Assembly (NCBI RefSeq): GCF_019038595.1 | Contig: NZ_JAHOPF010000001.1 | Location: forward strand, 496,001-560,000 | DNA: 64,000 nt | Origin: Kaistella soli | Lineage (GTDB): Bacteria; Bacteroidota; Bacteroidia; Flavobacteriales; Weeksellaceae | Direction: 5' to 3' | In this document: in pieces, positions 814-59,642 of the stretch | Position numbering within the stretch: position 1 is the first letter of the stretch | Layout of the letters: every line of letters begins with the position of its first letter | The notes under the pieces: generated by a model | Told to the model about the DNA's origin: nothing | What the model saw: the letters and a program-made list of their open reading frames with translations, nothing else | Databases searched by the model: none | Position numbers and translations under genes: made by a program

Positions 814-1911
814 ATGAACTTAAAAAACATACAGACAGAAGTTGATGCTTCTTTTCTTTACCGAATTTTAGCTGAAAAAGAAGAAAATAAGAATGTAAAA
901 GAGGTCTTCCGGCAAATGAGTGAAATTGAAAAATCTCATGCTTTGGCATTCCTGAAAAAGACAGGGCTCACCGAAAACCAGATGCCGAAACCGTCCGGAA
1001 GGGCAAAAACTTTAAAGGTCATCGGTTCATTAATTGGTTACGATTATGTTCTTGGTGTGTTAATGGATACTGAAAAAAGCCTTGCAAATTCGGTGGGAAA
1101 AGCCAGAATAAAAACCGGCACACCGGCGTCTGTTTCCGATACTTCGCATGTGAAAATTTTGGAAACTGTCCTGGAAAACAATCCTGAAGTTGCCGGCAAT
1201 GTGCTTTCAAGATTTGAAAAAAGACACCGTTCGGTGGGAGGAAATGCTTTAAGAGCTGCGGTTTTAGGCGGAAATGACGGTTTGGTTTCCAATTTTTCTC
1301 TCGTGATGGGAATTGCGGGAGCGACTTCCGGACAAAGTGAAGTTTTGCTGACAGGTTTGGCCGGTTTGTTAGCCGGAGCACTTTCCATGGCGCTTGGCGA
1401 ATGGATTTCGGTACAGAGTTCAAAAGAACTTTACGAGAACCAAATGTCTCTGGAAATGGATGAACTGGAAGTGAATCCTGAAGGCGAACTGAAAGAAATC
1501 GCCCTCATCTACCGCGCAAAAGGAATACCGCAACAGCAGGCAGAAAAAATGGCTGATCAGATGATGAGTGATAAATCTTCAGCGCACCAGTTTCTGGTGC
1601 AGGAGGAGTTGGGAATAAACGTTGAAGAATTAAAAGGATCCGCGATGGAAGCAGCTTTAGCATCGTTTTTCCTTTTTGCAGTGGGCGCTATCATTCCGGT
1701 TATTCCGTTTTTCTTTTGGGGCGGAACCAAAGCTATTGTTTTCAGCGCAGGATTCAGCGCAGTCGGTTTATTCCTGATTGGTTCGGCAATCACGCTGTTC
1801 ACCGGAAAAAGCGTCTGGTTCTCGGGAATGAGACAGGTCATTTTCGGTCTTTTGGCGGCGGCAATAACCTTTGCGATCGGAAGACTTATTGGAGTTTCTG
1901 TGATGGGGTAA
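814..1911 (+). CDS. MbfA-like ferritin-domain/VIT1-CCC1 membrane transporter
   Basis: A 365-residue fusion of an N-terminal rubrerythrin/ferritin-like helical domain (about residues 1-140) and a C-terminal VIT1/CCC1 membrane domain (about 143-365). The ferritin part has acidic positions and an ExxH pair (E39, H42) of the type that binds iron. The VIT part starts with the family signature ALRAAVLGGNDGLVSNFSLV and has several hydrophobic segments. In characterised MbfA proteins this layout is an inner-membrane iron exporter in which the ferritin domain senses or feeds iron. Here iron or manganese export is inferred from the domain order. It has its own promoter and no operon partner; the trp leader follows about 55 bases downstream. 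Confidence 0.8.
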   Translation: MNLKNIQTEVDASFLYRILAEKEENKNVKEVFRQMSEIEKSHALAFLKKTGLTENQMPKPSGRAKTLKVIGSLIGYDYVLGVLMDTEKSLANSVGKARIKTGTPASVSDTSHVKILETVLENNPEVAGNVLSRFEKRHRSVGGNALRAAVLGGNDGLVSNFSLVMGIAGATSGQSEVLLTGLAGLLAGALSMALGEWISVQSSKELYENQMSLEMDELEVNPEGELKEIALIYRAKGIPQQQAEKMADQMMSDKSSAHQFLVQEELGINVEELKGSAMEAALASFFLFAVGAIIPVIPFFFWGGTKAIVFSAGFSAVGLFLIGSAITLFTGKSVWFSGMRQVIFGLLAAAITFAIGRLIGVSVMG

Positions 1912-1954: not shown

Positions 1955-1962
1955 TATATTTG
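1955..1962 (+). promoter_or_regulatory. trp operon promoter, -7 box
   Basis: TATATTTG matches TAnnTTTG exactly. No good -33 TTTG lies at the usual distance (a T-rich run with TTTG at 1940-1943 is too close). The box ends only 5 bases before the ATG of the leader peptide, so the mRNA probably starts at or within a base or two of that ATG. Confidence 0.6.
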
Positions 1963-1967
1963 TCCCA

Positions 1968-2042
1968 ATGAAAACGATCAACAATACAAACTGGTGGTGG
2001 CCTCAAAACTTTCAAAGTCTTGAGCACTGTTCTTTTGTGTAA
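1968..2042 (+). CDS. trpL: trp leader peptide (24 aa, three consecutive Trp codons)
   Basis: A 24-codon ORF ending in TAA, with TGG TGG TGG at 1992-2000 inside the motif NWWWPQ. It sits between the promoter box and the attenuator hairpin in front of trpE. Ribosome stalling on the Trp codons would decide which RNA hairpin forms. There is no room for a Shine-Dalgarno sequence between promoter and ATG, so translation is probably leaderless. Three Trp residues in 24 are far above chance, and the hairpins around it fit attenuation. Confidence 0.85.
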   Translation: MKTINNTNWWWPQNFQSLEHCSFV

Positions 2043-2097
2043 ATATATCCCAACAAAAAAATAAGAAGACTTTGACATTGCGTTAAAGTCTTTTTTT
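2002..2097 (+). promoter_or_regulatory. Transcription attenuator of the trp operon
   Basis: Four RNA segments can be traced. Segments 1:2 pair CTCAAaAC (2002-2009) with GTcTTGAG (2017-2024), right after the Trp codons (pause hairpin). Segments 2:3 pair TCAAAGTCTT (2012-2021) with AAGACTTTGA (2066-2075), a 10-bp antiterminator. Segments 3:4 pair AAGACTTTGAC (2066-2076) with GTTAAAGTCTT (2082-2092), an 11-bp stem with one G-U pair and a run of T to 2097, the terminator. A ribosome stalled at 1992-2000 covers segment 1, frees segment 2 to hold segment 3 and so prevents termination when charged tRNA-Trp is low. All pairings are read from the sequence; the mechanism is the classical model. Confidence 0.85.
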
Positions 2098-2120
2098 ATT
2101 TTTAAAACCCAGGAATTACA

Positions 2121-3542
2121 ATGAAATTTAATCAACATATTAAACTGAAAACCACCGTAAAATCTACACTGAGCGATCTTTTTACGCCCATCGGAATTTA
2201 CCTCAGGCTTCGCGACCAGTTTCGGGATACCATCCTTTTAGAAAGCGCCGGAAATCAGAATACCGCCAATAATTTTTCATTTATCGCAGTGAATGCCATT
2301 GCCGGAATCGAAATCAGAAATTATCAGGAAGCACAGATTAAATTCCCGCTTGAAAGCGCCGAAAAAATCAATATAGAAAAGGAAAAACTTACTGATCTAC
2401 TTCAGAATTTTTCAAAAACATTTGAATGCCAGGAGCCGAATTTACCTGTCGGAAAATCTGCACAGGGATTTTTTGGTTATACTTCTTATGATGCAATTCC
2501 GTTTTTCGAAAATATTAAATTTAAAGAGGTTTCAGAGGAAAACAGAATTCCATTGTTGCGTTACCGCCTTTATCAGTACGTGATTGCCATTAATCACCAC
2601 AATGATGAAATGTTTCTGATTGAAAATAAAATTGAAGGTTTAAAATCTGAAGCTGCAGTCATTGAAAATTTAATCCAGCAAAAAAATGCCCCGATTTTCC
2701 CGTTTGAAAAAACAGGAGAGGAAGAATCAAATTTGACCGATGAAGAATACAGAAATTCAGTGGAAACAGCAAAAAAACACTGTTTCCGCGGGGATGTTTT
2801 TCAGTTGGTTTTGAGCCGCAGATTTCAGCAGAAGTTTGTTGGCGATGAATTCAATGTTTACCGCGCCTTACGGAATATCAATCCATCGCCTTATCTGTTT
2901 TTCTTTGATTATGGAGATTATAAACTGATAGGTTCAAGTCCTGAAAGTCAGCTGATCATCAAGGATAATCACGCCATTATTCATCCGATCGCCGGAACTT
3001 TCAAACGGACCGGAAACATAGAGGAAGATTTAAAGGCCGCGGAAGAACTTAAAAAAGACGCAAAAGAAAATGCTGAACATACGATGCTTGTTGATCTGGC
3101 GAGAAATGATTTAAGTATTCTCGGGAAAAATACTAAAGTTTCCAAACTGAAAGAAATCCAGTTTTTCTCTCATGTGATTCACATGGTCTCGGAAGTAACA
3201 ACCGAAATTTCCGAAGAACAGAATCCTTATGAAATGATCGCCGCTACCTTTCCTCAGGGAACATTGAGCGGCGCCCCAAAATACCGCGCCATGCAGCTTA
3301 TCGATGACTATGAGAAAACCTCACGGAGCTATTATGGCGGCTGTATCGGATTTGTCGGTTTCGACGGAAGCTGCAATCAGGCGATTATGATCCGCACATT
3401 TTTAAGCAAAAACAATACTTTGTATTATCAGGCCGGCGCCGGAATTGTCGCGAAATCACAGGCGGAACTTGAACTCCAAGAGGTAAACAACAAGCTTGGA
3501 GCTTTAAAGAAAGCAATTCTGAAAGCAGAAAAACTCGCTTAA
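2121..3542 (+). CDS. trpE: Anthranilate synthase component I
   Basis: The 473-residue aminase subunit turns chorismate and ammonia (from TrpG) into anthranilate, the first step of tryptophan synthesis. The N-terminal part carries LLESA (about residues 39-43), which in the family contributes to tryptophan feedback binding. The chorismate-binding domain fills the C-terminal half, with IAGTFKRTG, HTMLVDLARNDL and TLSGAPKYRAMQLID. Length is normal. It is the first structural gene after the attenuator, 23 bases past its T-run, and trpG follows after 27 bases. Regulation is probably by attenuation and product inhibition. Confidence 0.96.
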   Translation: MKFNQHIKLKTTVKSTLSDLFTPIGIYLRLRDQFRDTILLESAGNQNTANNFSFIAVNAIAGIEIRNYQEAQIKFPLESAEKINIEKEKLTDLLQNFSKTFECQEPNLPVGKSAQGFFGYTSYDAIPFFENIKFKEVSEENRIPLLRYRLYQYVIAINHHNDEMFLIENKIEGLKSEAAVIENLIQQKNAPIFPFEKTGEEESNLTDEEYRNSVETAKKHCFRGDVFQLVLSRRFQQKFVGDEFNVYRALRNINPSPYLFFFDYGDYKLIGSSPESQLIIKDNHAIIHPIAGTFKRTGNIEEDLKAAEELKKDAKENAEHTMLVDLARNDLSILGKNTKVSKLKEIQFFSHVIHMVSEVTTEISEEQNPYEMIAATFPQGTLSGAPKYRAMQLIDDYEKTSRSYYGGCIGFVGFDGSCNQAIMIRTFLSKNNTLYYQAGAGIVAKSQAELELQEVNNKLGALKKAILKAEKLA

Positions 3543-3569: not shown

Positions 3570-4136
3570 ATGAAAATATTAGTCTTCGACAATTACGACA
3601 GTTTTACCTACAATCTCGTTCAGATGATTGAACAGATTATCGGTGAAAAAGTAGAGGTTTTCAGAAACGATCAGATCTCTTTGGAAGAAATAGAGAAATA
3701 CGACAAGATTATTCTTTCACCGGGTCCGGGAATTCCCGAAGAAGCCGGAATCTTGCTTGATGTTATTAAAAAATATGCGCCTATAAAATCAATTCTCGGA
3801 GTTTGCCTTGGTCAGCAGGCAATTGCAGAGGCTTTTGGCGGAAGCTTGATCAACCTTTCAGAAATCTATCACGGTGTTGCGACGGAATCCACGCAGATTA
3901 AGGAACATAAAATTTTCAGGAATTTACCTGAGACTTTGGAAGTTGGCAGATATCATTCGTGGGCAGTAAATCCTGAAGATTTCCCTGAAGAACTAGAAAT
4001 CACAAGCATCGATAAAAACGGAATGATCATGAGTTTGAAACACAGAACTTACGATGTTCACGCTGTTCAGTATCACCCGGAAAGTATTTTAACGCCGGAT
4101 GGAAAGCAGATTTTGGAAAACTTTCTTAATGATTAA
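3570..4136 (+). CDS. trpG: Anthranilate synthase component II (glutamine amidotransferase)
   Basis: A 188-residue class I glutamine amidotransferase that supplies ammonia to TrpE. Visible motifs are FDNYDSFTYNLVQ at the N-terminus, the oxyanion region SPGPGIP, the nucleophile Cys79 in GVCLGQQ, and the His/Glu pair in VQYHPESILTP. No fusion to TrpD or TrpE is present. In some bacteria this subunit also serves PabB; no second pabA is visible here. It lies between trpE and trpD in the operon. Confidence 0.95.
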   Translation: MKILVFDNYDSFTYNLVQMIEQIIGEKVEVFRNDQISLEEIEKYDKIILSPGPGIPEEAGILLDVIKKYAPIKSILGVCLGQQAIAEAFGGSLINLSEIYHGVATESTQIKEHKIFRNLPETLEVGRYHSWAVNPEDFPEELEITSIDKNGMIMSLKHRTYDVHAVQYHPESILTPDGKQILENFLND

Positions 4137-4174
4137 TTGTTGATAACTATTTGTTAATTATTAATTATCAAATT

Positions 4175-4188
4175 CTAACCACTAACCA
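4175..4188 (+). repeat. Heptanucleotide repeat, 2 units, before trpD
   Basis: CTAACCA occurs twice in tandem in the 58-base trpG-trpD gap, 6 bases before the trpD ATG. The unit resembles the 7-mers found inside trpF. Confidence 0.5.
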
Positions 4189-4194
4189 TTAAAA

Positions 4195-5181
4195 ATGAAA
4201 CAGATTTTACAATATTTATTCAACCACAATACGCTTTCAAAAGCTGAAGCGAAATCCATTCTCACTGAAATTGCCCAAAACAAATTCAATGAAAATGAAG
4301 TCACCGCATTTGTTACGGTTTTTCTGATGCGCAGCATTACGCTCGAAGAAATGGAGGGTTTTCAGGAAGCGCTTCTGCGGCTTTCTGTAACGGTTGATTT
4401 GGGAACCGAAGATTTGGTGGATATCGTAGGAACCGGCGGTGACGGGAAAGATACGTTCAATATTTCTACGCTCGCAAGTTTTGTGGTGGCCGGAACCGGT
4501 CAAAAAGTCGCGAAACACGGCAATTACGGCGTTTCATCCATTTCAGGTTCGTCCAATGTGCTGGAAGAGCTCGGCTATAAGTTTAAAACCAGCTCAGAAG
4601 ATTTACGTGGAGATTTGTTTAAAGGAAATATCTGTTTTCTTCACGCGCCGCTGTTTCATCCGGCCTTACGCTCGGTCGCGCCTTTAAGAAAAGGATTGGG
4701 CTTAAGAACGTTCTTCAATATTCTGGGTCCGCTGGTCAATCCTGCAAAACCTAAGTTTTCGATGATTGGAGTGTACAGTTTAGAAATTGCTCGGATTTAT
4801 CAGTATCTGCTGCAGAAAAAACAGGATAATTTTCTCCTCGTTCATGCACTCGACGGTTACGACGAGATTTCACTGACTTCAGATACCAAGATTTTCGATA
4901 AATCCGGAGAATATATCTTTTCTGCCCAGGAATTGGGATTTAAAAATACAGACGCCGAAAGTATTTTCGGGGGAAGTACTAAGCAGGATGCAGCAAAAAT
5001 TTTTAAATCCGTTCTGGAAGGTAATGGATCTTACGAACAGAATTCGGTAGTGCTTGCCAATGCGGCTATGGCTTTAAAAAACACAGAAAAATACGGTGAT
5101 TACAGCGATTGTCTCGCTTTGGCTGTAGAAAGTTTAGAAAGCGGAAAAGCGCTCAAAAGCTTACAGAATATATTAAATTAA
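4195..5181 (+). CDS. trpD: Anthranilate phosphoribosyltransferase
   Basis: The 328-residue enzyme joins anthranilate to PRPP to give phosphoribosyl-anthranilate. The glycine-rich PRPP loop VGTGGDGKDTFNIS lies near residue 80. Further family signatures are KHGNYGVSSISGSS and LGLRTFFNILGPLVNP. An N-terminal helical domain precedes the Rossmann-like domain, and the length is typical. It follows trpG after 58 bases and precedes trpC by 9 bases. Confidence 0.96.
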   Translation: MKQILQYLFNHNTLSKAEAKSILTEIAQNKFNENEVTAFVTVFLMRSITLEEMEGFQEALLRLSVTVDLGTEDLVDIVGTGGDGKDTFNISTLASFVVAGTGQKVAKHGNYGVSSISGSSNVLEELGYKFKTSSEDLRGDLFKGNICFLHAPLFHPALRSVAPLRKGLGLRTFFNILGPLVNPAKPKFSMIGVYSLEIARIYQYLLQKKQDNFLLVHALDGYDEISLTSDTKIFDKSGEYIFSAQELGFKNTDAESIFGGSTKQDAAKIFKSVLEGNGSYEQNSVVLANAAMALKNTEKYGDYSDCLALAVESLESGKALKSLQNILN

Positions 5182-5190
5182 CAGCTGGAA

Positions 5191-5970
5191 ATGAATATTT
5201 TAGATCAGATTATCGCAGCGAAGAAGAAAGAAATTCAGGTTTCAAAATCTCAAATTTCAGTGGAGCAGCTGAAAGATTCCGAGTTTTTTGACCGTGAAAC
5301 TTTTTCATTAAAAGAAAGCCTGAAATCAAAATCGGGAATCATTGCAGAATTCAAACGGAAGTCACCGAGCAAAGGAATTATCAGCGAAAAAGCTAACGTT
5401 TTGGAAGTGGCAAAGTCATATGAAAACTTTGGCGCGAGCGGAATTTCAATTTTAACGGATTCTGATTTTTTTGGTGGAAATTTTGTGGATATTTTAAAGG
5501 TCAGAAAAGAAATTAATATTCCGGTTTTGAGGAAAGATTTCATGATTGATGAATATCAGTTTTATGAAGCAAAATCCATCGGGGCGGATGTTGTTTTATT
5601 AATAGCTGCCTGTCTGTCAGCAAGTCAGGTTCATGAATTTACAGAACTGTCACATCAGTTGGGTTTAGAAGTCCTGCTCGAAATACACACTGAAGATGAA
5701 CTCATGCATTTCAATAATAACGTTGATTTAGTGGGAATTAATAACAGGAATCTGAAAGATTTTAAAGTGGATCTGCAGCATTCCGTTAACCTTAAAAATC
5801 TTTTGCCCGAAGGTACCTTATACGTTGCAGAAAGCGGAATTTACAGCGTGGAAGATTTTAAATTCCTTAAAGAAAAAGGCTTTGACGGTTTCTTAATGGG
5901 TGAATATTTTATGAAAAATGAAAATCCCGGGACAGCTTTTGAAGAATTTATAACCAAAATATCATCATGA
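5191..5970 (+). CDS. trpC: Indole-3-glycerol phosphate synthase
   Basis: A 259-residue TIM-barrel enzyme that closes the indole ring from CdRP. Catalytic-site signatures are IIAEFKRKSPSKG (about residues 49-61), VLRKDFMIDEYQ, VGINNRNLKDF and VAESGIYS. It is not fused to TrpF, unlike in enterobacteria. Its TGA overlaps the trpF start in an ATGA, suggesting translational coupling. Confidence 0.96.
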   Translation: MNILDQIIAAKKKEIQVSKSQISVEQLKDSEFFDRETFSLKESLKSKSGIIAEFKRKSPSKGIISEKANVLEVAKSYENFGASGISILTDSDFFGGNFVDILKVRKEINIPVLRKDFMIDEYQFYEAKSIGADVVLLIAACLSASQVHEFTELSHQLGLEVLLEIHTEDELMHFNNNVDLVGINNRNLKDFKVDLQHSVNLKNLLPEGTLYVAESGIYSVEDFKFLKEKGFDGFLMGEYFMKNENPGTAFEEFITKISS

Positions 5971-6596
5971 AACTGAAAATTTGCGGCCTTACAAAGCCTG
6001 ATCAAATTCAGGAATTAATTGATCTGAAAACCGACTTTCTGGGCTTTATATTTTATGAAAAATCTCCCAGATATGTTTTAGATCATTTAAGCTTAAACGA
6101 GATTTCAGGAATTAATCATGCTGGAAAAGTGGGAGTTTTTGTCAATGAGACAGTAGAAAATATTGCGGCAGTTGCTGAAGATGCAGCGTTGAATTATATC
6201 CAGCTTCATGGCGACGAAGACGAAAACTATATTACTGAATTGCGTAGTAAATTAAATAGCGAAATTAAAATCATTAAAGTGATAAGAATCGGAAACCAAA
6301 CCACCGAAGAACTTCAAAAAACCATCAACCATCAACCCTCAGCCATCAACTTTATTCTTTTCGATACCGATTCAAAAGTATTTGGCGGTACAGGAAAAAC
6401 ATTTGAATGGCAAATTTTAAACAGTATAGAAATCACCAAGCCCTACTTTTTGAGTGGCGGAATTTCTTTGGAAAATATCAGTCAGCTATCAACTATCAAC
6501 CATCCACCTTTTTCACTGGACATCAATTCAAAATTTGAAACCGAACCCGGCGTAAAAGATCTTCAAAAAATAAAACAATTCTATGAAAAATTATAA
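5967..6596 (+). CDS. trpF: Phosphoribosylanthranilate isomerase
   Basis: A 209-residue TIM-barrel isomerase (PRA to CdRP). Motifs are [11 protein letters not shown] with the catalytic Cys near residue 5, [17 protein letters not shown], and [13 protein letters not shown] with the catalytic Asp in the preceding FDTD. It overlaps trpC by 4 bases and trpB by 14 bases. Oddly, two blocks are encoded by 7-base tandem repeats (6321-6348 and 6486-6506), giving the stretches [10 protein letters not shown] and LSTINHPP. They lie where the family tolerates loop changes. The frame stays open and all catalytic motifs are present, so the enzyme should be active. Confidence 0.95.
6321..6348 (+). repeat. Heptanucleotide tandem repeat inside trpF (4 units)
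   Basis: Four units: ACCATCA, ACCATCA, ACCCTCA, GCCATCA. It is in coding sequence and translates as TINHQPSAI in the trpF frame. Confidence 0.7.
6486..6506 (+). repeat. Second heptanucleotide repeat inside trpF (3 units)
   Basis: Three units: CTATCAA, CTATCAA, CCATCCA, encoding LSTINHP near the phosphate-binding end of TrpF. Confidence 0.6.
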
Positions 6597-7764
6597 GAAT
6601 CCTGACGAAAACGGCTATTACGGCGAATTTGGCGGCGCCTTTGTTCCCGAAATGCTTTTTCCAAATGTGGAGGAATTACAGAATAACTATCTCAACATCA
6701 TCGAATCTTCTGAATTCAAAGAAGAGTTCCGGGATTTATTAAAAAACTACGTCGGGAGAGCCACACCATTATATTTTGCAGAGAATCTCAGTGAAAAATA
6801 CCAGACTCAGATTTATCTTAAAAGAGAAGATTTGAATCATACCGGCGCACACAAAATCAACAATGCTTTAGGACAGGCTTTGCTTGCCAAAAAACTGGGA
6901 AAACACCGGATTATAGCGGAAACCGGAGCCGGACAACACGGTGTCGCTACCGCAACAGCATGCGCACTGCTCGGTTTGGAATGTATCGTTTACATGGGCG
7001 AAGTCGATATTGCAAGACAGGCTCCAAATGTAGCGAGAATGAAAATGCTCGGCGCCACTGTGATTCCTGCAACTTCAGGATCCAAAACGCTGAAAGATGC
7101 GGTGAATGAAGCTTTACGCGACTGGATCAACAATTCCACAACAACGCACTACATCATCGGAAGTGTGGTGGGTCCGCATCCTTTTCCCGATTTGGTGGCA
7201 AGGTTTCAAAGTGTGATTTCAGAAGAAATAAAATGGCAGCTGAAAGAAAAAATTGGCAGGGAAAATCCCGATTATGTAATGGCATGTGTGGGCGGCGGAA
7301 GCAATGCTGCAGGAACTTTCTACCATTTCGTGAATGAAGAGGATGTAAAACTTATCGCTGCAGAAGCCGGCGGTTTTGGTGTGGATTCCGGTAAATCTGC
7401 AGCCACGACATTTCTCGGAACTTTGGGCGTTTTGCATGGCAGCAAAAGTCTGGTGATGCAGACAGAAGACGGTCAGGTGATCGAACCGCATTCCATTTCC
7501 GCGGGACTGGATTATCCGGGAATCGGACCATTTCATGCGAATCTGTTTAAAGAAAAAAGAGCGGAATTTTTCTCCATCAATGATGATGAAGCTTTAAAAT
7601 CTGCGATGGAACTCACGAAACTGGAAGGCATCATTCCTGCTTTAGAATCTGCTCACGCTTTAGCCGTTCTGGAAAAGAAAAAATTCAGGGAAGACGATGT
7701 CGTCGTGGTCTGCCTGAGCGGTCGCGGAGATAAAGACATGGAAACTTACCTTAAACATTTGTAG
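6583..7764 (+). CDS. trpB: Tryptophan synthase beta subunit
   Basis: A 393-residue PLP enzyme that condenses indole with serine. The PLP lysine is K91 in [14 protein letters not shown]. Other signatures are [25 protein letters not shown] (phosphate loop), [11 protein letters not shown] and LSGRGDKDM near the C-terminus. It is the canonical TrpB1 type and starts inside the end of trpF (14-base overlap), so it is probably translationally coupled. The usual partner trpA follows only after a 129-base gap holding a palindromic repeat. Confidence 0.97.
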
Positions 7765-7772
7765 CAGTATTT

Positions 7773-7855
7773 GGGCGCCTTAATCCGCCTTCCGCTCCCG
7801 CTTTTTTGTTCCGCTCCGCTGCACAAAAAGAGCTCCGCTCACGTCGGGGCGTGGG
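7773..7855. repeat. GC-rich palindromic intergenic repeat (copy A)
   Basis: It fills most of the trpB-trpA gap. A central CTTTTTTGT...ACAAAAAG inverted pair (7801-7830) encloses a C/G-rich spacer, followed by GAGCTCCG and GTCGGGGCG. It shares the pattern CTTTTTT-spacer-AAAAAGAGCTC, then TCGGGGC, with the element at 11409-11494. I recall similar elements in many Chryseobacterium-type genomes, but copy number cannot be checked here. Confidence 0.6.
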
Positions 7856-7893
7856 TTTCGGTATTTTAAGAATATTTAGTAAAAACAAGAATT

Positions 7894-8676
7894 ATGACTA
7901 ACACAGATAACATCCAGCATCCAGCATCCAACATCCAACACCACAAAAAACTCAATATATACTTCACTGCCGGAATTCCCGGACTGGAAGACACTACAGA
8001 AGTTCTGAAAATCATCCAAAGTTCCGGTGCGGAAATGGTGGAAATCGGGATGCCTTACTCCGATCCTGTTGCTGACGGTCCGGTAATTCAAAAGGCGCAT
8101 GAACTAGCACTTCTTAACGGAATGACGATCGTTAAACTTTTTGAACAGCTGAAATCTATAAAATTAGAGATTAAAATACCTGTTGTTTTAATGGGGTATA
8201 TCAATCCCGTTTTGAGTTTCGGTTTTGAAAATTTTTGTCACGAATGCGCTGAATCAGGAGTTTCTGGATTAATTATTCCTGATCTTCCGCCAATCGAATT
8301 TGAGAAAAATTACAGACAGATTTTAGAAAAATACCAGCTCAATTTTTCTTTTCTGGTAACGCCGGAAACTTCGGATGAACGCATCAGATATCTGGATTCT
8401 TTAAGTTCAGGATTTTTGTACGCGGTGTCCAGTTCGTCTACAACGGGAAACGCTTCGAAAGAAATCAATAACGGACAATACCTGCAAAACCTCGCTGCGC
8501 TGAATTTGAAAAACCCGGTAATGATTGGGTTCGGGATAAAGAGTAAAGATGATTTTCAAAAAGTAACAGCAAATGCGGCGGGAGGAATTATCGGAACTGC
8601 GTTCGTGAATATTCTTTTGCAGAAAGGAGATTGGAAAGGAAAAGGCGCAAGTTTTATTCGAAGCATAATAAATTAA
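7894..8676 (+). CDS. trpA: Tryptophan synthase alpha subunit
   Basis: A 260-residue TIM-barrel subunit that cleaves indole-3-glycerol phosphate and channels indole to TrpB. The catalytic Glu is in MVEIGMPYSDPVADGPVIQ, and the phosphate site is SSSTTGNASKE and GFGIKSKDDF. The family sequence begins at KKLNIYFTAGIPG (about residue 18). The preceding residues come from a heptanucleotide repeat, and there is no other ATG start between, so the extension is probably real. It is the last gene of the trp operon; an intergenic repeat separates it from trpB. Confidence 0.95.
   Translation: MTNTDNIQHPASNIQHHKKLNIYFTAGIPGLEDTTEVLKIIQSSGAEMVEIGMPYSDPVADGPVIQKAHELALLNGMTIVKLFEQLKSIKLEIKIPVVLMGYINPVLSFGFENFCHECAESGVSGLIIPDLPPIEFEKNYRQILEKYQLNFSFLVTPETSDERIRYLDSLSSGFLYAVSSSSTTGNASKEINNGQYLQNLAALNLKNPVMIGFGIKSKDDFQKVTANAAGGIIGTAFVNILLQKGDWKGKGASFIRSIIN
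7911..7938 (+). repeat. Heptanucleotide tandem repeat at the start of trpA (4 units)
   Basis: CATCCAG, CATCCAG, CATCCAA, CATCCAA. It lies just after the trpA ATG and encodes part of an N-terminal extension before the conserved TrpA sequence. Confidence 0.7.
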
Positions 8677-18215: not shown

Positions 18216-18242
18216 AAACTCCCTTATTGCGGGAGTTTTTTT
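18216..18242 (+). terminator. Terminator between YceI copy 2 and the DUF2459 gene
   Basis: AAACTCCC (18216-18223) and GGGAGTTT (18231-18238) with a 7-base loop and T-run to 18242. It abuts the stop of the convergent gene and may serve both. Confidence 0.8.
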
Positions 18243-18918
18243 ATGGGTAATGCTGAAAAATTCCACGGTCGGTGGGAGTCCAAAGCGCCGCTTTTTGTCC
18301 GGCTGCTTTCAGACCGCTGTTCGTCCAGGTATTGCAGGTTTCAAGGAAATTATAACTTCCTTTAGCATCATAAAAAGCGTCATTTTTTCCGTAAACCGCA
18401 TCCGTTTTGATGAGGATTGGCTTTCCGTTTTGGTCGCGGTCAAATTTATTCCGGATGAAATGTATTAAATCTAAATACTGCTGATGGGTCAAAGTCAGTT
18501 TTTTGCAGTCTTTACCTTCAGTCATTTTAGCGTAAAAGGTACAGTGCATCGCAGATTCGCCCAGCCAGAATGCAGCTTTAAAAGCCGTTGAAAATTTCAG
18601 TTCTGCCCAGGTTGGGGTATCGAGATAGAAACCTTTATCGCCCCAACCGATGGAAAGGTAATTGAAATCGGTCCTTTTTGAAATCGTGTTATCGAAAGGT
18701 ATTTCTTTGCTCCAGTCGATTTCCGCAGATTTTATCGGAACAACCAGATCTGTATGAACACCGTTTGTCAGAATGTATACGGTAATATTCTGGGGTTCAG
18801 AAACAGGTTTTTTCGCAATTTCGATATAAGGAATTAAAAATCCGCAGAGAACATAAACGGCGATTACACCAATAATCGCCCAAATTGTTTTAAGAATGAC
18901 GAGAACGGTTTTCTTCAT
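18241..18918 (-). CDS. DUF2459 (TIGR02117) membrane-anchored protein
   Basis: A 225-residue protein with one N-terminal membrane anchor (about residues 5-30). The family signature ILTNGVHTDLVVPI is followed by WGDKGFYLDTPTWAEL, and the C-terminus NFLETCNTWTNSGLKAAGQ carries a conserved Cys. The last block resembles the Cys of NlpC/P60-like or urease-related folds, but catalysis is not established. A TACATTTG box on the minus strand lies 4 bases upstream of the ATG. Confidence 0.8.
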   Translation of the reverse strand: MKKTVLVILKTIWAIIGVIAVYVLCGFLIPYIEIAKKPVSEPQNITVYILTNGVHTDLVVPIKSAEIDWSKEIPFDNTISKRTDFNYLSIGWGDKGFYLDTPTWAELKFSTAFKAAFWLGESAMHCTFYAKMTEGKDCKKLTLTHQQYLDLIHFIRNKFDRDQNGKPILIKTDAVYGKNDAFYDAKGSYNFLETCNTWTNSGLKAAGQKAALWTPTDRGIFQHYP

Positions 18919-42987: not shown

Positions 42988-43842
42988 ATGAAACTTCAGA
43001 CCGCCAGTGATCAGCACGCTTTTTTTTCCATCAACTGTTATGGGAAACTCATTGATTTGTCTTCACCGAAAATCATGGGAATCCTTAATCTGACGCCCGA
43101 CTCTTTTTCCGATGGCGGAAAGCATAATGAAGAAAAGAAAGCATTAATTCACGCAGAAAATATGTTGAGGAGCGGTGCCGAGATCATCGATATTGGGCCA
43201 CAGTCAACAAGACCAAATGCTGAGTTTTTACCTGCGGAAGAGGAAATTTCAAGAATTGGAAATATGATTTCTCTTATTAAAAAGGAATTTCCGGAAGCAT
43301 TGATTTCTCTTGATACTTTTTATTCAGAAGTGGTAAGATTTGGTTTTAACGAAGGTTTGGATATTGTGAATGACATTTCGGGCGGAATGTTTGATGACAA
43401 AATGTTTGAAACCGTTGCTGAAACCGGATTACCTTATATTTTAATGCACGTAAATCCAACCTACGAATCAATGCATGAAAAACTGATTGATGACGATATC
43501 ATTCTGAATATCAACCGGTATTTTTCTGAAAAGATGGGGGAGTTAAAAAAAGCCGGAGTGAAAGATGTTATTCTGGATCCTGGTTTTGGATTTGGGAAAA
43601 CGGTGGAACAGCAGCATCAGATGATTGATGAACTGGATCATATCGGTTTTGGTAAATATCCTTTACTGGTAGGGATTTCAAGGAAGTCTTTTATATACAA
43701 ACCTTTAGGAAAACAACCTTCCGACATTAATCCGGAAACGCAAAGGCTTCATCTCAGGCTTCTGGAGAAAGGAGCGAAGATTCTCCGTGTCCACGATGTT
43801 GCAGAAGCAAAGAAAACGGTTGATTTATTTCTGAACAGTTAA
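42988..43842 (+). CDS. folP: Dihydropteroate synthase
   Basis: A 284-residue TIM-barrel enzyme of folate synthesis and the target of sulfonamides. Motifs are IMGILNLTPDSFSDGGKHNE, EIIDIGPQSTRPN, DIVNDISGGMFD, DVILDPGFGFGKT and LVGISRKSFIYKPLG. The start at 42988 fits the promoter; 20 extra codons upstream contain no conserved sequence. Its stop overlaps that of the convergent small gene in TTAA. Confidence 0.95.
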   Translation: MKLQTASDQHAFFSINCYGKLIDLSSPKIMGILNLTPDSFSDGGKHNEEKKALIHAENMLRSGAEIIDIGPQSTRPNAEFLPAEEEISRIGNMISLIKKEFPEALISLDTFYSEVVRFGFNEGLDIVNDISGGMFDDKMFETVAETGLPYILMHVNPTYESMHEKLIDDDIILNINRYFSEKMGELKKAGVKDVILDPGFGFGKTVEQQHQMIDELDHIGFGKYPLLVGISRKSFIYKPLGKQPSDINPETQRLHLRLLEKGAKILRVHDVAEAKKTVDLFLNS

Positions 43843-44252: not shown

Positions 44253-46706
44253 TTAAAATCCTAAAAAATTAAGTTTCAGCTGGATGGCAAAATTTTCTTT
44301 AAACGGCAGCGTAGAGTAGTGCCCAACTCTGTAGAAAAACCCCAGATTGAAAGGTGTTCCCATGAAGTTATTGCTTTCAAGACCAATCTCCTGATAAAGG
44401 TGATCAAGTTTCTGAAACTCAAAATTGTGATATTCAGGATTCTTCATATCGCCGGTAATTCCGCGGTAAACCACGTCGAAACTCGAAATGTTTTTCCCGA
44501 ATGTTTTGAAATACCAGGGAATCCTGTGGGTAAAATAATAGCCCACAAATTTGTCGTTGTAGTATTTTCCGCCTTCCATCGTGGCAAAACCCAGGAAAGA
44601 TGTCAGGTTAAAATTAAAACTGTCTTTTCCGCTTCCTAAGCCATTCATCGCAAAATGGTGCCAAACAGGAGCTTCACCGGAAATCAAACCTCCATAAACG
44701 CGGATTCCCGTTACGCCGGCTTTAGTTTTAAAGTTGTGCTGCGCCAAAATATCGAAGCGGCTGTAATTAAGGTCTCCGCCAAATGTTTTAAGACCCTGTT
44801 CGTAATTTAGGTAAAATTCAGGGAAACTCTGTTCATAGGTAAACTTTCCTGAGGGCGTCATGATGTTTTTCGATTTCGGAGCGTATTTCAGGGTCAGCAG
44901 GGAGGCGAAATTTTCAAACTTTGGACCGCGGTTCATAAAATCATACCCGAAAGTGGCTTCTTCATTGTCTTTTTTTGCGGAAACATTTAATGTTAAAGCG
45001 TTGCTTAAATCATTCTCGAAAGAAAGTTTAAAACCGTCGTGTCGGTAAAACCTGTCGTTTTTCAAATCAATCCCGGAATTCATGATTTTCATTTTGAAGT
45101 TCCATAAATTTTCATTGAAGCGTCCTGCAGCAACTACATCATTATAATATTCGGCCCGGAAAAATGAGTTTTTTTCAAGCGTAGTTTTTACGTCAATTCC
45201 AACGCCGTATTTCCAGGTTTCGTCTTTGAAACCATAGGCAAGATAGGCGTCAGGGGAAATATATTTGTTAAATCTTTCATTAAGCTTTCCGGCGAGTCCC
45301 AAGCGGAAGCCCTCAAATTTATTGTACTTGAGAATTTGCGAGGCATCAAAATCTACTTTTCCGATGCGTATTTTCCCTTTGATTAAACCGGTAAATGCAT
45401 TTAATTTCTGGTCGAGTTTATATTTTTTTCCAACGCTGTCAATTTTTTCGTAGGTCATTTTTTCACGTGCTGTCAGGGAATCAGTCCTGAAGCGATCCAG
45501 CGTTGTTCCGTCAGCATTCTGCACATCCATCGTGTATCCTGAAAAGTCTTTTCTCTTTTCTTCAATAGGAGTTTTAAAATCGAAATAATCCGCGATTACA
45601 AAGACATAGTTTCCGAATTTCTGTTTGTCTTTATTTTCTGCTTTTTCACCTGCTTTTTCACCTGTTTTTTCATCGGTTTTTTTGGAATCAAAAACAGTGG
45701 AACCCATTTTTACCTTGTAATTTTCCTTACTCAGAAACCATTTGTTATTTATCGGTTTCCAGATGCTGGTGATGGTACCTTCGCTTTTTTTCTTGCTGTT
45801 GCTTTCGATTTTTTTCAGACCGAAAGTTTCAGTGTCCACATAAATATAACCGTTGTATTTTCTTTTATCAATAGGCTTTTTGTAATCAACCTGACGGAAA
45901 CGGATCACATAATTTTTTCTGCCCTCGATTTCAATGGTATCGGTTAAAAAGAATCGGTAAAGCGTACGGTTTTCTTCACGGATTTCCCTTGGGATGCGGT
46001 TTCTGTTGGATCGCAGCGTCATCATTTCATAAATCGGCTGTTTCAGTCCGGAAACCCGGTTGTCCAGAACCGTTATCTTTTCGCCGTATTTTTTCGAAAA
46101 TAAAAATTCGGAAGCTCTCTCCCACAGAAAAAGTTTACTCGAGCCCATCAGTTTCATGACATTCACACTTTCAATTGAATCTTTCCGCTCTTCTTTTGAC
46201 TGTACCTTTTCCGGAAGACGTTTTAAAGAATCAATTCTTTTTTCGAGGTAGTGGTTGTAGTTTTTAATACTGTCTTCATCGATATCCAGAGAGATTTTTT
46301 CATAAGATTTAAAAGAGTAGGAATCGAGGCTTTGTGGGGAGTTCTTTTGGTAATTATCGTTTACTTTCTGCAGAATCTGCAGTGCGCGGGGATCACTTTT
46401 GTCGTTGATCACCACTGTTTCGATAGACTGCGTTTTGGGATCGGCTTTTGAAAGTGCAAGTTCCATCACTTTATCCACCACGGCGTCATCGTCGTAATAT
46501 CCTGCCGCTTTCACGGTTACTTTTTTACATTTTGTTCTGAATTCAAGAACGCCGCCAGCATTGGTTTTTCCTAAATTATTACTGTTACAGAAAACCGACG
46601 CATTCGAAAGCGGAGTTCCTTCTCCTGCTCTGAGAACGGTGATTTTTGACTGCCCGAAAATATTCAGAAAAATGAAAGAAAAGAGTAGCGCCGACAGTTT
46701 ATTCAT
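44253..46706 (-). CDS. DUF5686-family outer-membrane protein with carboxypeptidase-like N-domain
   Basis: An 817-residue protein. A signal peptide (LSALLFSFIFLNIFGQ) is followed by a carboxypeptidase-regulatory-like beta domain (SNASVFCNSNNLGKTNAGG...GYYDDDAV). A central charged region with KKTDEKTGEKAGEKAENKDK is next, then a C-terminal half with barrel-like strands ending FAIQLKLNFLGF. The family is typical of Bacteroidetes and its role is unknown. The start at 46706 (MNKLSALL) is preferred because the signal peptide begins there. The stop codon abuts repeat copy C. Confidence 0.8.
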   Translation of the reverse strand: MNKLSALLFSFIFLNIFGQSKITVLRAGEGTPLSNASVFCNSNNLGKTNAGGVLEFRTKCKKVTVKAAGYYDDDAVVDKVMELALSKADPKTQSIETVVINDKSDPRALQILQKVNDNYQKNSPQSLDSYSFKSYEKISLDIDEDSIKNYNHYLEKRIDSLKRLPEKVQSKEERKDSIESVNVMKLMGSSKLFLWERASEFLFSKKYGEKITVLDNRVSGLKQPIYEMMTLRSNRNRIPREIREENRTLYRFFLTDTIEIEGRKNYVIRFRQVDYKKPIDKRKYNGYIYVDTETFGLKKIESNSKKKSEGTITSIWKPINNKWFLSKENYKVKMGSTVFDSKKTDEKTGEKAGEKAENKDKQKFGNYVFVIADYFDFKTPIEEKRKDFSGYTMDVQNADGTTLDRFRTDSLTAREKMTYEKIDSVGKKYKLDQKLNAFTGLIKGKIRIGKVDFDASQILKYNKFEGFRLGLAGKLNERFNKYISPDAYLAYGFKDETWKYGVGIDVKTTLEKNSFFRAEYYNDVVAAGRFNENLWNFKMKIMNSGIDLKNDRFYRHDGFKLSFENDLSNALTLNVSAKKDNEEATFGYDFMNRGPKFENFASLLTLKYAPKSKNIMTPSGKFTYEQSFPEFYLNYEQGLKTFGGDLNYSRFDILAQHNFKTKAGVTGIRVYGGLISGEAPVWHHFAMNGLGSGKDSFNFNLTSFLGFATMEGGKYYNDKFVGYYFTHRIPWYFKTFGKNISSFDVVYRGITGDMKNPEYHNFEFQKLDHLYQEIGLESNNFMGTPFNLGFFYRVGHYSTLPFKENFAIQLKLNFLGF

Positions 46707-59047: not shown

Positions 59048-59560
59048 TTAAGGTTCAAAACTCTCAAATTTTCCATTCTCGTAAAACATTACAATTCTTT
59101 TTATTTTACTGCTTTGATTATCAGTCTGTTGATTCACGGTGTTTTTTTCCTGAACGTCTAATCGCTGAGAATCCGATATTTTTTCTTTTTCGGGAATTGG
59201 TGCGTAAATTTCCGATTCTCGCGGGAGATCTTTTTTCACTTGATCTTCACTTTCTGTTATGCCAAAATTATCATCGTCAATTAAAGAGAATAAATCGGGC
59301 AGGGAAGACGTCTTTGGTTTTTCGGGAATTACTTCCGGTTCCTGAGTTTTCAACATTTCGCCGTCACCCATAATTAACCAATCCCACTGTATTTGAGGAA
59401 AACGATCTTTTATCTTAATGAGAAAATCCAGGGAAGGTTTATTTCTTCCTGACGTGATGTGCGAAATGTTCGAACGCTGCACATCGATCTCATCAGCAAA
59501 TTCAGAAGAGGAAAGTTCTGAATATTCTATGATTTTTGAAATTCTCTCATTTAAATTCAT
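59048..59560 (-). CDS. XRE-family transcriptional regulator
   Basis: A 170-residue DNA-binding protein. The helix-turn-helix lies in residues 1-55 (ERISKIIEYSELSSSEFADE, VQRSNISHITSGRNKPSLDF). A long charged linker follows, then a short C-terminal IKRIVMFYENGKFESFEP motif seen in other Bacteroidetes XRE proteins. The start at 59560 (MNLNERIS) is preferred because a TACATTTG box lies 5 bases upstream. Palindromes of the form TTAC-N4-GTAA upstream suggest autorepression. Confidence 0.88.
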   Translation of the reverse strand: MNLNERISKIIEYSELSSSEFADEIDVQRSNISHITSGRNKPSLDFLIKIKDRFPQIQWDWLIMGDGEMLKTQEPEVIPEKPKTSSLPDLFSLIDDDNFGITESEDQVKKDLPRESEIYAPIPEKEKISDSQRLDVQEKNTVNQQTDNQSSKIKRIVMFYENGKFESFEP

Positions 59561-59562
59561 AG

Positions 59563-59642
59563 TTACAAATGTAAATAATATTTTCACAAATATAAAATAC
59601 AAAAGTAAACAAATTGATAAGTACTGCATTTACAAAAGTAAA
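59563..59642 (-). promoter_or_regulatory. Promoter and operator-like palindromes of the XRE gene
   Basis: The -7 box TACATTTG is at 59566-59573 on the minus strand. Three sites share TAC-N4-GTA: TTACAAATGTAA (59563-59574, over the promoter), TACAAAAGTA (59598-59607) and TTTACAAAAGTAAA (59629-59642, perfect). Spacing is about 32-33 bases centre to centre, three helical turns. Autoregulation is inference. Confidence 0.6.

Follow-up and report, generated by a model that had tools for sequence, protein, structure and literature searches.

The stretch of DNA analysed here, called the window, comprises 64,000 nucleotides of the genome of Kaistella soli. By TrpE, its nearest named relatives among the best 80 of 432 contig matches are Kaistella and other Weeksellaceae. 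In the window, trpE is followed at 3570–8676 (+ strand) by six trp-like open reading frames (ORFs), which by recognition we take to be trpG, trpD, trpC, trpF, trpB and trpA in that order, and is preceded by a leader ORF, trpL (Table 1). An earlier note made from the sequence had pointed to a 24-codon leader with three consecutive Trp codons and to a leader ATG five bases past a promoter box, and both were confirmed. Upstream of the leader lie a gene of the VIT1 family and, at 6–680, a gene that presumably encodes a protein resembling an efflux adaptor.

Table 1. Features of the trp leader region, in positions of the window.
Feature	Position	Strand	Basis or remark
VIT1-family gene	814–1911		Rubrerythrin domain; precedes the trp leader
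−7 promoter box, TATATTTG	1955–1962	+	Consensus TAHHTTTG; block strongly conserved before the ATG of relatives
TCCCA spacer, box to ATG	1963–1967	+	Sequence; box-to-ATG gap 5
Predicted transcription start, A1967 or A1968	1967–1968	+	Inferred from the 4–5 nt spacing in F. johnsoniae
trpL leader ORF, MKTINNTNWWWPQNFQSLEHCSFV	1968–2042	+	24 codons; ATG 1968–1970, stop TAA 2040–2042
Trp codons, TGG TGG TGG (stall site)	1992–2000	+	Sequence
1:2 hairpin (anti-antiterminator)	2002–2024	+	Fold −5.6 kcal/mol
Segment 2, TCAAAGTCTT	2012–2021	+	Pairs with 2066–2075
Segment 3, terminator 5′ arm	2063–2076	+	Folding and terminator scan
Segment 4, terminator 3′ arm	2082–2095	+	Folding and terminator scan; leads into a T-run that reaches about 2104
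trpE, first gene of the controlled operon	2121–3542	+	Pfam PF00425 and PF04715

The three alternative pairings of an attenuator, also proposed in the earlier note, were all found by folding and complementarity. The 1:2 hairpin (z −3.4) was equalled by 2 of 200 shuffles. Segment 2 and the sequence AAGACTTTGA within segment 3 form a perfect 10-base complement. The 3:4 terminator, with 14 pairs and −14.6 kcal/mol (z −5.6), was equalled by none of 200 shuffles, is followed by a T-run and was also picked up by the terminator scan. A short ORF with tandem Trp codons thus stands ahead of trp genes, and the antiterminator and intrinsic terminator are mutually exclusive, as in a ribosome-mediated trp attenuator. 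In E. coli trpL, stalling at the Trp codons selects either the 2:3 or the 3:4 pairing; that ORF carries two Trp codons, ends before segment 2 and is preceded by a 5′ leader sequence and a Shine-Dalgarno site, whereas the stop codon in the window lies 18 nt after segment 2.

The region 1948–2074 matches the Rfam family RF01692 (Bacteroid-trp) over model positions 1–131. The match is marginal, with 49.8 bits against a gathering cut-off of 49, and is the sole one reported in this genome (150 of 486 candidates scored). With a score over that cut-off and a location upstream of trp genes in Bacteroidota, the element belongs to this family, with which it shares a Trp-codon leader preceding trp genes. 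Bacteroid-trp was published in 2010 (PMC2864571) and has been recorded upstream of the F. psychrophilum trp operon (PMC6414381). The attenuator is therefore not new but a real, well-conserved example of an already known family. STnc180 and the remaining Rfam matches in the window were below their cut-offs and were dismissed. A Flavo-1 RNA (RF01705) was noticed downstream of the trpE match of Kaistella palustris (L075:3018–3091).

Across the class and under stricter filters, RF01692 matched in 11 of 198 genomes, nine of them over the cut-off, and it was over the cut-off in just 1 of 20 chosen relatives. Because it is a poor census tool, relatives were gathered by TrpE instead. With paralogues included, TrpE matches at E 0.001 were obtained from 57 of 60 genomes of the window's family and 77 of 79 genomes of the order, and matches at E 1e-100 or less from 51 of 159 genomes of the class. 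Further loci came from 80 named contigs (the best 80 of 432), 36 upstream stretches and the loci of Rfam hits. The 199 loci analysed yielded 157 distinct leaders with WW or WWW; 13 others were identical copies and not counted again, and 29 loci had no WW leader by our rule. These 29 include L029, with a WCW leader, and L173, L188 and L189, from genomes whose leaders, about one gene further upstream, were counted via L163, L170 and L164. Dropped before the 199 were L143, L154 and L161, whose orientation was not assignable, and the second copies L001, L165, L166, L168, L169 and L172.

A hairpin of −8 kcal/mol or below, ahead of a T-run, followed 155 of the 157 leaders, compared to 126 of 785 shuffled stretches; at a threshold of −12 kcal/mol the counts were 149 of 157 and 35 of 785. 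Of 154 leaders, 94 had a segment 2 with at least seven paired bases, which in 90 of these lay within the leader ORF. It begins a median of 22 nt (quartiles 21 and 23) past the first Trp codon, and 20 nt past the first base of that codon in the window. The energy of the 2:3 pairing relative to shuffles was a weaker signal (75 of 154 leaders had a z of −2 or less). The letters of segments 2 and 3 vary by family while their pairing is kept, as in TCAAAGTCTT/AAGACTTTGA of the window and CGGGGCTT/AGGCCCCG of L120. This co-change was quantified by requiring a segment 2, within 18–38 nt of the first Trp codon, to pair at least seven bases with its own or a swapped segment 3. In the Weeksellaceae group (L002–L028, L058–L112 and L118, including L095, which is named Capnocytophaga), 89% of 70 leaders paired with their own segment 3, compared to 6% of 700 combinations in which segment 3 came from the Chitinophagaceae group. 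For the latter group (L113–L138 minus L118, some otherwise assigned just to Bacteroidota) the values were 72% of 25 and 38% of 250. The other 59 leaders, which include further members of the window's own family, showed no co-change at the same position (14% own, 12% of 590 swapped), so the segment layout is established for two groups only. The covariation that the earlier note had proposed to look for upstream of trpE was thus seen in these two groups and, at the same position, not in the 59 others. Given the Rfam match, a terminator in nearly all scored relatives and the co-change of segments 2 and 3 in two families, the assignment of the element in the window as a trp attenuator is strongly supported.

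We then considered where its mRNA starts. A scan of 1850–2200 for sigma-70-type promoters found none, as expected if a Bacteroidota −7 box drives transcription, and there is no other TAHHTTTG on the + strand at 755–1954. In Flavobacterium johnsoniae, promoters were counted as probable when 4 or 5 nt separate the −7 element from the start site, with the last G of TAHHTTTG at −5 (PMC6847099). This spacing rule, which comes from a Flavobacterium, of another family than the window's host, predicts a leader of 0–1 nt in the window. The proposal of the earlier note that the mRNA starts at the leader ATG is upheld as a prediction from the box spacing and the conserved gap, although the exact base, A1967 or A1968, is something we infer.

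Among the 157 leaders, the gap between box and start codon was 4 nt in 35, 5 in 42, 6 in 6, 7 in 16, 8–10 in 15 and 12–35 in 22, and a box was not found in 21. Gaps were scored from a strict box or one with one mismatch, and of the ATGs lying no more than 16 codons ahead of the Trp codons the one giving a gap closest to 5 was used; L113–L115 were scored as 35, though the variant CATCTTCG stands 7 nt before their ATG. A strict box at a gap of 4–5 nt was found in 68 of 150 leaders (ATG 3–12 codons before the Trp codons), compared to 0.37 expected from shuffles, a somewhat low expectation since each shuffled leader was given a single ATG, whereas a real one could contribute several. As the rows are mutually related, the 68 strict boxes represent conservation rather than 68 independent events. 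Gaps of 4–6 nt occurred in 29 of 38 leaders of the window's own family and in 37 of 44 leaders of L058–L112 and L118, nearly all Weeksellaceae, and gaps of 4–7 nt in 21 of 26 leaders of L113–L139, mostly Chitinophagaceae, and in 11 of the 49 remaining leaders. In another family of the order (f3; L036–L038, L040 and L042) the gap was 17–20 nt, and in Rfam-hit relatives of other families (such as L163, L164 and L167) the ATG lies 22–23 nt past the box, unlike in the window. In the gap-4 leaders, conservation ahead of the ATG is concentrated in the box; in the gap-5 leaders, the AT-rich DNA preceding the box is conserved as well. In L109, L116, L122 and L136, the trp leader apparently starts with GTG, 4 nt from the box, and these may be leaderless GUG starts.

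A promoter box directly ahead of the start codon is thus kept in relatives, and given the F. johnsoniae spacing and the persistence of the gap over a large evolutionary distance, the predicted leaderless start is well supported. The box could also act as the promoter with a start 1–3 nt before the ATG, giving a very short leader of functionally the same class, a variant to which we give somewhat less than even odds. A 4-nt spacing combined with the gap of 5 in the window would place the start at A1967 and leave a 1-nt leader, and a gap of 7 is the commonest in the Chitinophagaceae group (12 of 26). In the 35 gap-4 leaders, however, the same spacing puts the start on the ATG itself.

In a TrpE tree with 132 rows, where leaderless means a gap of 7 or less, the leaderless state changes at least 8 times, compared to 21.3 times for shuffled labels; the tree, from FastTree alone, contains open forks and a number of branches flagged as long. 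Most Weeksellaceae group with the Chitinophagaceae group in a 101-row clade (support 100), in which 84 rows are leaderless, 7 leadered and 10 unclear. From the distribution of boxes, most Weeksellaceae thus appear to have long kept a leaderless trp leader; the same holds, less exactly, for Chitinophagaceae, and some lineages have lost the feature. The position of segment 2 is shared between these two groups, which suggests joint movement of the operon and its leader from one lineage to another. The TrpE of L031, a member of the window's own family, clusters with rows that belong to a different family of the order. L095, whose record is named Capnocytophaga cynodegmi, has a Weeksellaceae-like TrpE (78% identity) and leader, reflecting either a transfer or a misnamed record.

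Some relatives carry extra DNA between the box and the trp leader. In L073 this adds codons in frame, from an ATG 5 nt past the box; in L079, L081 and L084 the ATG near the box begins a separate short ORF; and in L010, L021, L080 and L088 the box is present with no nearby ATG. Leaderlessness is therefore usual in the clade but not indispensable, and the attenuator persists without it in the leadered or box-less relatives counted above. The extra DNA of L073, L079, L080 and L081 (Epilithonimonas relatives; L080 is named Chryseobacterium sp.) contains a GACAG/CTGTC inverted repeat, and in L081 the upstream ORF overlaps the start of the trp leader by ATGA.

These leadered forms, together with the mere 56 bases between the VIT1 stop (1911) and the leader ATG, which make read-through possible, are consistent with a real attenuator whose main transcript comes from further upstream, by read-through from VIT1 or from an unseen promoter, so that in practice the leader peptide would be preceded by an ordinary 5′ leader. 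We regard this as decidedly unlikely. Of 161 loci searched, only 2, those of this genome and of K. montana, have a VIT1 relative between the gene at 6–680 and the trp leader, but the box and its spacing are the same under other upstream DNA, and the strong conservation of the box and the lack of a second one on the + strand at 755–1954 also argue against it. The gene that precedes VIT1 in the window stands near trpE in 18 loci. The window and a related genome (G026) are identical from ATTTCTATATTTG through the terminator and different before it. As leader DNA is shared while upstream DNA differs, the promoter travels with the leader.

Leaders of other amino-acid operons served as an internal control. 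In the same genome, the ATG of the hisG leader, MFNQLHHHHFHTCTLAS, lies 19 nt past its box. We found hisG in nine of ten genomes searched, with nine His-rich leaders (L209–L217), in which strict gaps were 18–20 in six, 33 in one and 7 in one from outside the order (L214); the ninth (L210) has, in place of a strict box, TAGATTTG about as far from the start. Five genomes of the family were scored for both leaders (G000, the present genome, G026, G008, G020 and G010), and in these the trp gap is 4–5 and the His gap 19–20. A simple rule based on residue runs picked out Ile-rich leaders before ilvD at 3 of 6 loci (L218, L219 and L223), with gaps of 16–19; ilvD had no match in the present genome. 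By the spacing rule, the trp leader of most Weeksellaceae would be at the very 5′ end of its mRNA, while His and two Ile (ilvD) leaders would have about 12–16 nt. No convincing leaderless leader was found at 14 thrA/hom loci, where the 1.5 kb flank may miss the start of long fused genes.

Leaderless mRNAs are reported to make up 5.5% in F. psychrophilum, for which strong clues for leader peptide attenuation ahead of amino-acid operons are also described (PMC9723704). About 3.7% of the 5′ UTRs reported for B. thetaiotaomicron are under 10 nt (PMC7366714), and 87% of the predicted transcripts reported for F. johnsoniae have leaders over 10 nt (PMC6847099). As leaderless mRNAs are a reported minority in Bacteroidota, a leaderless trp leader is noteworthy there, and we found no report of one in the main text of open-licence PMC papers. 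Of the 60 ORFs in the window with at least 80 codons, 23 have a strict box no more than 60 nt from the start, 4 of them at a gap of 3–5, so the share of leaderless starts may be higher here than the published values. The four ORFs, which may be leaderless judging from their boxes, encode a DUF2459 protein (18241–18918, −), a pterin-binding enzyme (42988–43842, +), a DUF5686 protein (44253–46706, −) and an HTH protein (59048–59629, −).

The most probable reading, to which we assign a probability of roughly 80%, is that the trp operon is controlled by a ribosome-mediated attenuator, with a leader mRNA that begins on the leader start codon or one base ahead of it. RNA polymerase carrying the primary sigma factor of Bacteroidota would initiate at A1967 or A1968, and a ribosome would load onto the 5′-terminal AUG once about 30 nt had been transcribed. 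When charged tRNA-Trp is scarce, this ribosome would stall at the TGG codons and mask segment 1, so that segment 2 would pair with segment 3, no terminator would form and trpE–trpA would be transcribed. With ample Trp, the ribosome would reach the stop codon, the 1:2 and 3:4 hairpins would form, and transcription would stop at the T-run. That the element acts mainly via translation or another sensor instead is most improbable, as the three Trp codons, the intrinsic terminator before trpE and the median distance of segment 2 from the first Trp codon all fit the geometry of stalling.

The earlier note had regarded the combination of leaderless translation with stalling attenuation as unusual, a judgment contradicted by systems already described. 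The attenuator peptides TrpL1 (MFAHSTRNWWWTAHPAAH), LeuL1, LeuL2 and IlvL of Streptomyces lividans are described as leaderless, and TrpL1, like the leader in the window, is a WWW peptide before trpE with a Rho-independent terminator (PMC8079986); this likeness is by description, and the system is an actinomycete one with another promoter type. In Sinorhizobium meliloti, the 5′ end of rnTrpL is reported to begin with the ATG of the 14-aa trpL peptide, so that this trp attenuator too has its 5′ end at the leader ATG, but it is alphaproteobacterial, and its released RNA and peptide are described to act in trans too (PMC7298713). Leaderless initiation is also discussed for the ilvBNC leader of C. 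glutamicum in a 2025 paper (PMC11857589), and leaderless cysteine-rich upstream ORFs of mycobacteria have been proposed as attenuators (PMC4633059). What is new here is that the leaderless arrangement is conserved and that the His leader of this genome differs from it.

That selection maintains leaderless initiation as a functional component of the trp switch seems unlikely to us. If it does, the trp leader may sense not only the charging of tRNA-Trp but also how many 70S ribosomes are available that can initiate on a bare AUG, and the ribosome may be coupled to the polymerase from the first codon. Bacteroidota are a phylum without Shine-Dalgarno sites, and a leaderless trp leader beside leadered His and Ile leaders is a natural paired test of how ribosomes that do not use such sites bind the nascent RNA quickly enough for attenuation to work, for which the relatives with extra DNA between box and ATG provide ready-made comparisons.
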